Made by a program: the position numbers and the translations under genes. This document shows, piece by piece, positions 7,341-9,082 of a DNA stretch of 38,148 nucleotides. The notes under the pieces are model-generated. The model was not told the DNA's origin and ran no database searches. It worked only from the letters and a program-made list of their open reading frames with translations. Each line of letters opens with the position of its first letter. Position 1 is the first letter of the stretch. Origin of the DNA: Gemmatimonadota bacterium (GTDB taxonomy: Bacteria; Gemmatimonadota; Gemmatimonadetes; Gemmatimonadales; Gemmatimonadaceae); contig JAJPIS010000013.1 in NCBI GenBank assembly GCA_021324635.1, forward strand, positions 1 through 38,148. The letters run 5' to 3'.

Positions 7341-7415
7341 GCTGTATCCCGATGCGGGGTCGCGTGCGAGCACCCCTGATGTGTGTCCGATCCGTCTGCG
7401 ACCCGCCCGGCGCGC

Positions 7416-7931
7416 TCAGCGCGGCGTCAGGATCATGATCATCGACTTCCCTTCCAGCTTCGCCTCGCTCTCGACCTTCGCCACGTCGGCGAGCGTCGAT
7501 GCGACCCGGTCCACCACTTCCTTGCCGAGCTCCGGGTGCGCGATCTGTCGGCCGCGAAACATCATCGTGACCTTCACCTTGTTCCCTTCCTGCAGGAATT
7601 CGCGCGCGTGACGCGTCTTCGTCTCGAAGTCGTGGTCCTCGATGCCCGGACGGTACTTCACTTCCTTGAGGTGAATCACGTGCTGTTTCTTCTTGGCCTG
7701 CCGGGCCATCTTGGCCTGCTCGAACTTGAACTTCCCGTAGTCCATGATGCGGACCACCGGAGGTCGGGCCGCCGGCGCGACCTCGACGAGGTCGAGCCCC
7801 TGCTCCTGCGCGGCGGCCAGTGCCGAGTCCACGTCCATGATGCCCAACTGACTTCCATCGGCTCCAATCACCCGAAGCGGGCTGATTCGAATTTGCCGGT
7901 TTACGCGAACACGCTTGGTATTGTCCTGGAT
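7416..7931 (-). CDS. infC: Translation initiation factor IF-3, probable AUC start
   Basis: IF-3 binds the 30S subunit and proofreads the start codon and initiator tRNA. The C-domain (KKKQHVIHLKEVKYRPG, DHDFETKTRHAREFL, KVKVTMMFRGRQIAHPELG) and linker are clear. The conserved N-terminal helix RVRVNRQIRISPLRVIGADG is encoded upstream of the first in-frame GTG (7871), yet no ATG, GTG or TTG lies in frame above it. The best start is ATC at 7929-7931, preceded by GAGG 8 bases away, giving 171 residues, close to the E. coli length of 180. infC of E. coli starts at AUU, a discriminated codon used for autoregulation, so a rare start here is expected biology. An ATT at 7890-7892 is a weaker alternative. 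A terminator-like attenuator lies 60 bases upstream. Confidence 0.93.
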   Translation of the reverse strand: MQDNTKRVRVNRQIRISPLRVIGADGSQLGIMDVDSALAAAQEQGLDLVEVAPAARPPVVRIMDYGKFKFEQAKMARQAKKKQHVIHLKEVKYRPGIEDHDFETKTRHAREFLQEGNKVKVTMMFRGRQIAHPELGKEVVDRVASTLADVAKVESEAKLEGKSMIMILTPR

Positions 7932-7991
7932 AGCGCCCGCCTCACACTTGGTAAGAAGTCCGTCGTCTCCCGTGCCCGCGTTCTTCGGATG

Positions 7992-8021
7992 AAAAAACGC
8001 GGACCCCCGATGGAGTCCGCG
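7992..8021 (-). terminator. Intrinsic terminator in the infC leader, likely attenuator
   Basis: On the minus strand a 10-bp GC-rich stem (one G-U pair, 4-base loop) is followed at once by six T residues: 8012-8021 pairs with 7998-8007 and the T-tract is 7997-7992. It lies 60 bases before the proposed infC start and 140 bases after the stop of the upstream hydrolase gene. The sequence 8066-8072 can form 7 pairs with 8012-8018, part of the terminator's 5' arm, giving a competing antiterminator. It may equally just end the upstream transcript. Confidence 0.8.
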
Positions 8022-8120
8022 CGCGTCGCCGGGCAGCCGATGTCGGCGGCACCGTCACCGTTCGGGAACTCCTACAGCACACATCGCGACGAGCATATCG
8101 GCGCGGCCGGCCGGAGGGTG

Positions 8121-8156
8121 AGCCCCACCTGGGGCTGCTTAGCCTGTTGTCAGGCT
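8121..8156 (-). other. Two tandem 6-bp tetraloop hairpins after the hydrolase stop codon
   Basis: agcccc/ggggct (8121-8136) and agcctg/caggct (8141-8156) are each perfect 6-bp stems with 4-base loops, separated by 4 bases. The second begins 5 bases after the hydrolase stop on the minus strand. Neither is followed by a T-tract. They may protect the 3' end of that transcript or belong to the infC leader. Confidence 0.55.
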
Positions 8157-8161
8157 GGAAC

Positions 8162-9082
8162 TTAGACGCGCTCGACGACTCGGTCAAGGGCGGGCGCGAG
8201 GGCGTACGCCTTCCCGTCGTGGACCACCCGCCCCCAGGGGACGAGCGGATCGTGCACGAAGGTGACCAGCCACTCCTCCTCGCGTGCGCGGGCCAGGATG
8301 CGGCGCTTGGACTCGAGCGTGACCAGCGGCTCGACGTCGTATCCCATGATCCACGGGAGCGGGAGATGGGCGGTGGTGGGGACGAGGTCACCCAGGACGA
8401 GCGCCCGCTCCCCGCCCGACTCGAGGAGCACACTCTGGTGGTGGGGCGTGTGTCCGGGGGTGGGCAGCACCCGCACACCGGAAACGATTTCCCGCTCGCC
8501 CTCGACGAGGTCGAAACGGCCGGCTTCGTACACCGGCGTGAAGTTGTGTGGGAAGTAGCTCGCCGCCGTGCGCTCGTTGGTGTGCGTCGCGTAGTGGTAT
8601 TCGCCGGCCTGCACGACGTAGCGGGCCCGCGGGAAGCTCAGCCGCACGGTCCCGTCCGCCTCGCGATACGTGTTCCCTCCGGCGTGGTCGAAGTGCAGGT
8701 GCGTGTCGATGACGATCGCGATGTCCTCCGGCGCGAACCCGGCGGCGCGCAGGCCGTCCTCGAGCGCGGTCCGGCCGCCGGCGCCCGCGTTCTCGACGCC
8801 GTAGATGTCGGCGAAGCGGGCGTCCTCCTTGTTGCCGATCCCGGTCTCGATCAGGATCGGGCCCACGTCGTGCTCGACGACGAGACAGCGCATGCCGAGC
8901 TGGATCCGGTTGCGCTCGTCAGCGGGCGTTCGGCGCACCCAGAGCGGCTTGGGCACCACCCCGAACATCGCGCCGCCGTCCAGGCGCTGGCCGCCGGCCT
9001 GAATGGCGTGGACCGTCCAGCGGCCGATGCGCCGCTGCTCGTGCAGCGGGCCGAGTGCAGGGAGCGGAGGGAGTGCCGTCAC
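8162..9082 (-). CDS. Metallo-beta-lactamase-fold hydrolase (lactonase-like)
   Basis: The 306-residue protein has the dinuclear metal signature of the superfamily: THLHFDHAGGN (His128, His130, Asp132, His133), PTPGHTPHHQS, the bridging Asp in LVLGDLVPTT and a late His in FVHDP. Overall layout resembles the quorum-quenching lactonase branch, but substrate cannot be read from sequence. No signal peptide is visible, so it should be cytoplasmic. The start chosen is the GTG sharing GTGA with the stop of the exonuclease gene, with GGGAG 8 bases upstream; another GTG at 9097 would add 5 residues. It sits between that exonuclease and infC. Confidence 0.85.
   Translation of the reverse strand: MTALPPLPALGPLHEQRRIGRWTVHAIQAGGQRLDGGAMFGVVPKPLWVRRTPADERNRIQLGMRCLVVEHDVGPILIETGIGNKEDARFADIYGVENAGAGGRTALEDGLRAAGFAPEDIAIVIDTHLHFDHAGGNTYREADGTVRLSFPRARYVVQAGEYHYATHTNERTAASYFPHNFTPVYEAGRFDLVEGEREIVSGVRVLPTPGHTPHHQSVLLESGGERALVLGDLVPTTAHLPLPWIMGYDVEPLVTLESKRRILARAREEEWLVTFVHDPLVPWGRVVHDGKAYALAPALDRVVERV

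Follow-up and report, generated by a model that had tools for sequence, protein, structure and literature searches.

A probable L20-responsive transcription attenuator in the infC leader of Gemmatimonadota

The 220 nt infC leader of a Gemmatimonadaceae genome is, on the evidence of its own sequence and that of its relatives, very probably a transcription attenuator through which free ribosomal protein L20 is sensed and controls its own operon. Sequence analysis reveals the operon infC-rpmI-rplT, a promoter, a hairpin (P1) with covariation, the conserved base of a second stem (P2), an antiterminator pairing and an intrinsic terminator, together with the order in which these follow one another. 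The role of L20 as ligand, its binding to the leader, the attenuation and the direction in which the operon responds are inferred. L20 autoregulation is the best reading because the core resembles rRNA, the plan is that of the Firmicutes RF00558 leader, L20 regulates this operon in B. subtilis and L20 is itself encoded here. The leader is a divergent form of a known regulator type, in a phylum where it is uncatalogued as far as the literature we examined and Rfam 15 show.

The operon and the layout of its leader

The stretch of DNA analysed here (the window, 38,148 nucleotides) comes from a Gemmatimonadaceae MAG of 4.09 Mb. All genes concerned lie on the minus strand, namely an MBL-fold hydrolase gene (9097-8162) upstream of the leader, then infC (7931-7416), rpmI (7373-7143, encoding L35), rplT (7133-6771, encoding L20, the proposed ligand), pheS as the next same-strand gene (6707-5631) and pheT. 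The infC product has the IF3_N and IF3_C domains of IF-3. We place its start codon at ATC 7931-7929, because IF3_N begins at residue 10 when the gene is read from there and no in-frame ATG, GTG or TTG occurs before 7871, that is, none upstream of the conserved IF-3 N-terminus. A mechanical ORF caller chooses GTG 7871 and loses this N-terminus. By a mechanical count, most relatives start infC with ATT, ATC, ATA or CTG. Start-codon discrimination control by IF-3 is known in E. coli, and the non-AUG start suggests that control of this type operates in addition.

A consensus promoter with 17 nt spacing, TTGACC-N17-TAAGTT (8187-8159), precedes the leader. Its -35 element (TTGACC, 8187-8182) lies within the last codons of the hydrolase gene and its -10 element (TAAGTT, 8164-8159) overlaps the hydrolase stop codon (8164-8162), so placed that transcription would start near 8152. 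Of 85 relatives, 66 have a comparable promoter, which in 61 of these lies 10-20 nt ahead of the AAG of the leader core; 85 control windows within the infC coding sequence contained none. The initial annotation had offered a TATGCT box as a possible promoter; the hexamer is indeed present at 8097-8092, but it is part of the P2 end loop, which is variable and lies about 60 nt downstream of TTGACC-N17-TAAGTT, and we rejected it in that role.

Of 60 relatives, 58 yielded IF-3, and 80 further loci were taken from genome contigs. The leaders of the relatives share a common order: a promoter TTGAC-N17-TANNTT, ACAA, AAGY, P1, CACC, P2 and then GGNGUYC or GGGUYC, followed by a variable hairpin, the terminator, a Shine-Dalgarno sequence and a non-AUG infC start. 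The ACAA (8150-8147 in the window) is strongly conserved in many Gemmatimonadota, about 8-10 nt before AAGY and near the predicted start of transcription, where we found no role for it. In a sub-clade (L030, L031, L043, L103 and L105) a conserved CAUAAGCAUCC-hairpin-GGUGC element takes the place of the variable hairpin, between the antiterminator strand and the terminator; an exact 13-mer search matches it in 3 of 61 genomes. One locus, L040 of genome G053, seems to have lost the leader and has a long near-perfect inverted repeat adjoining infC instead.

The P1/P2 core and the L20 site of 23S rRNA

The putative sensing half of the leader (8140-8068), which the initial annotation had missed, begins with AAGC (8140-8137). 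Its AAG, with the AA dimer common to L20 sites, is invariant at all three positions in 54 aligned leaders, as is the CACC (8120-8117) on the other side of P1 (AGCCCC-AGGU-GGGGCU, 8136-8121). The CC region of this CACC pairs with GG 8072-8071 at the base of the P2 stem-loop (8119-8068), where ACCCU (8119-8115) faces AGGAGU (8073-8068). P2 is the proposed anti-antiterminator; its ACCCU sequesters GGAGU, the nucleotides that open the antiterminator strand GGAGUUC.

In the 54 aligned cores, 94.9% of P1 cells are paired, all seven pairs change on both sides and the outer four pairs have no unpaired cell. P1 and P2 together give a covariation score of 0.474, compared with 0.194 for shuffles and 0.11-0.18 for slid controls. 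The CC-GG base of P2 is present in essentially all sequences, and its lower pairs give no covariation because they are nearly invariant; they are conserved rather than covarying. When 85 cores were folded alone, the GG paired with the CC of CACC in 75, the A-U closing pair formed in 61 and the AA dimer was left unpaired in 82.

As we found no 23S sequence in the window's own genome, the core was compared with the 23S rRNA of relatives and of E. coli. Helix 41 of E. coli 23S has AAGU immediately in front of it and CACC immediately behind, the CC of which pairs with the GG of helix 40; in Gemmatimonadota 23S this helix is flanked by AAGU and CGCC. We take the helix assignment from complementarity and general knowledge. 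P1 is the counterpart of helix 41 and the leader CACC that of the CACC or CGCC behind it. As read from sequence, the leader AAGY-P1-CACC, with its CC paired to a downstream instead of an upstream GG, is a circular permutation of the helix 40/41 junction. The published signature of L20 mRNA sites is an AA dimer with two G-C pairs (PMC7247131). The leader shows both, with the two G-C pairs next to each other, just as 23S does at helix 40/41. Another candidate, leader GGUAAGUGG as a copy of 23S GGUUAAGUGGG, was dropped; AAGU-helix 41-CACC matches better.

The initial annotation had proposed a leader sensing L20 or IF-3, and of these two the rRNA mimicry points to L20, while nothing that we found supports IF-3 as the signal. 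A real attenuator that answers to the translation of a hidden leader peptide, or to a protein other than L20 such as IF-3, L35 or a further ribosomal protein, seems improbable to us. We infer L20 as the ligand rather than observe it, which leaves room for such a signal, and infC has a non-AUG start, a feature shared with species in which IF-3 regulates the translation of its own mRNA. Against this, the leader is invariant at the nucleotides that make up the L20 site on rRNA, L20 is a product of the operon, and in Firmicutes this core senses L20.

Terminator, antiterminator and proposed mechanism

The intrinsic terminator (8021-7992) consists of a 10-bp stem (8021-8012 with 8007-7998), the loop AUCG (8011-8008) and six T (7997-7992), and lies 60 nt before the infC start. 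It is the sole terminator-like site within 7400-8400, where shuffles expect 0.4, and 84 of 90 parsed leaders have a terminator-like hairpin. The antiterminator pairs GGAGUUC (8072-8066), shared with the 3' strand of P2, with GGACUCC (8018-8012), the inner part of the terminator 5' arm, in seven pairs of which one is U-G. Both the terminator and this pairing had been described by the initial annotation and are found on the minus strand just as it described them. The region in between (8065-8023) is variable, and in most relatives it holds a hairpin of unrelated sequence.

In the window by itself the seven-pair alternative could be chance. Shuffled arms reach all seven pairs in about 2% and at least six in about 24% of cases, and the whole leader, as a single sequence, folds no better than shuffles (z -0.45). 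The question is settled by the relatives: all seven antiterminator pairs are present in 28 of 38 Gemmatimonadaceae-type leaders and at least six in 37 of 38, which is far beyond chance. Furthermore, across 84 leaders the duplex with the leader's own terminator arm has a mean energy of -10.60 kcal/mol, compared with -6.41 kcal/mol for shuffled arms. With arms swapped between species the value is -9.45 ± 0.21 kcal/mol and none of 200 swaps is as low as the own-arm mean, a significance that is somewhat exaggerated as the sequences are related. A compensated case is seen at locus L073, where the arm GAACUCC accompanies the strand GGAGUUC, and in distant families the arm is GGAUCUU, GGGCACCC or GGCCCGG, each with a matching strand. 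At the level of sequence and energy, the antiterminator excludes the terminator, as in L20-responsive attenuators.

The initial annotation had proposed a terminator/antiterminator leader for infC-rpmI-rplT and had named a lack of conserved pairing among relatives as what would speak against it. The preference for the own arm over swapped arms bears out the proposal, and the P1 covariation, the own-arm duplex and the recurrence of the core in 132 of 200 Gemmatimonadota genomes attest to the conservation.

The minimum-energy fold of the window leader changes with transcript length, from one that includes P1 and P2 at 90 nt, through the antiterminator at 144-150 nt, to the terminator from 156 nt onwards. 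We propose that transcription starts near 8152 from the promoter at 8187-8159 and that the nascent RNA would first fold P1 and P2, thereby imitating the L20-binding junction of 23S helices 40 and 41. When free L20 is scarce, GGAGUUC (8072-8066) would leave P2 and pair with GGACUCC (8018-8012) as soon as the latter has emerged. The antiterminator so formed would block the terminator, and infC-rpmI-rplT would be transcribed. When L20 is in excess of rRNA it would bind and hold P1/P2 as an anti-antiterminator, leaving the terminator at 8021-7992 free to form and to stop transcription before infC.

It is very unlikely that the hairpin is simply the 3' terminator of the MBL-fold hydrolase gene, with the infC promoter located downstream of it. 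The hydrolase gene does lie on the leader's strand, and 70 of 85 relatives likewise have it ahead of the leader. However, a consensus promoter stands between the two, the distance from hydrolase to infC varies from 217 to 738 nt, and a plain terminator would not preserve P1, P2 and the antiterminator strand. In addition, the leader is kept in 12 genomes that have no hydrolase within about 1.4 kb upstream, which speaks against the possibility, named by the initial annotation itself, that the hairpin only ends the hydrolase transcript. That the leader folds but L20 acts through it on translation or mRNA stability is hardly to be expected. L20 does repress translation in E. coli (PMC10931766), but here a conserved antiterminator accompanies a strong terminator, and the start codon follows 60 nt later.

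Likeness to known L20 leaders and spread across phyla

In B. subtilis, L20 regulates infC-rpmI-rplT through a terminator that it stabilises (PMC6097659; PMC10931766). The Gemmatimonadota leader agrees with the B. subtilis L20_leader (RF00558) in its operon and its position upstream of infC-rpmI-rplT, in the core of AAGY, hairpin and CACC with a second stem based on CC-GG, and in an intrinsic terminator between this core and infC. It differs in its high G+C, in the sequences of P1, P2 and terminator and in a longer P2 arm. It stays below the RF00558 gathering cut-off. Rfam scans of the window and its relatives returned no families, RF00558 being absent from the window even at E up to 10, and among 121 Gemmatimonadota genomes none exceeded the RF00558 gathering cut-off and one gave a weak match. 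A Firmicutes locus (L130) that does score as RF00558 aligns with the same core as the Gemmatimonadota leader.

Other systems share parts of the design. The E. coli rpmI-rplT operator (pseudoknot and hairpin) likewise has L20 as its ligand and mimics the 23S site (PMC10931766), but it acts on translation, lies inside the operon downstream of the infC start and uses another scaffold. The deltaproteobacterial L20 r-leader candidate of Eckert and Weinberg (2020, PMC7247131) is predicted to retain two consecutive G-C pairs and an AA dimer of the L20 site, but it has another scaffold and is tabulated in another gene context. The B. subtilis rplJL leader, which senses L10(L12)4, follows the same logic of anti-antiterminator, antiterminator and terminator with a different ligand, operon and RNA.

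Trained on Gemmatimonadota only, a covariance model (R1) of the P1/P2 core matches the window with 56.5 bits, its single match in that genome. Across the phylum it finds the core in 132 of 200 genomes, nearly always once per genome and just upstream of infC wherever the position of infC is known. Two matches were seen only in G107 and G206, possibly reflecting operon duplication, an assembly artefact or contamination. In 100 Actinobacteriota genomes R1 gave two matches, each of them immediately before infC. A joint core model (R2) includes Firmicutes sequences and one actinobacterial sequence. Its alignment, which joins the Gemmatimonadota leaders with those of Firmicutes, has an invariant AAG and CACC and a covariation of 0.774, compared with 0.261 for shuffles. 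All 30 Firmicutes matches fetched and 9 of the best 12 matches in Actinobacteriota lie directly upstream of infC; owing to the composition of R2 there is some circularity in the Firmicutes result, but little in the actinobacterial one. The weaker R2 matches in Actinobacteriota are mostly chance.

Contrary to what the initial annotation had supposed, the core is not specific to one lineage; it follows the design of the Firmicutes L20 leader and is also found before infC in Actinobacteriota. In the literature we examined, reports of the RF00558-type leader are limited to Firmicutes and Thermotogales (PMC3766115, PMC6097659), with an origin in Firmicutes suggested by an earlier survey of the L20 motif (PMC3766115). 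In M. tuberculosis, RNA-seq revealed a long infC 5' UTR that was likened to the L20 system, without a structure (PMC3207917). We see about an even chance that the infC L20 leader is an old element of Gemmatimonadota, Actinobacteriota and Firmicutes with a changing sequence, largely missed by the Rfam model, rather than a Firmicutes invention; alternatively, the same circularly permuted rRNA mimic may have arisen repeatedly.

The usual description of ribosomal-protein leaders is that each is restricted to a single phylum and arose as an independent invention. A core with rRNA-like nucleotides in most of the sampled Gemmatimonadota and before actinobacterial infC makes the choice between common origin and repeated mimicry testable, and it gives a probable control element of ribosome synthesis to a phylum with almost no regulatory data.
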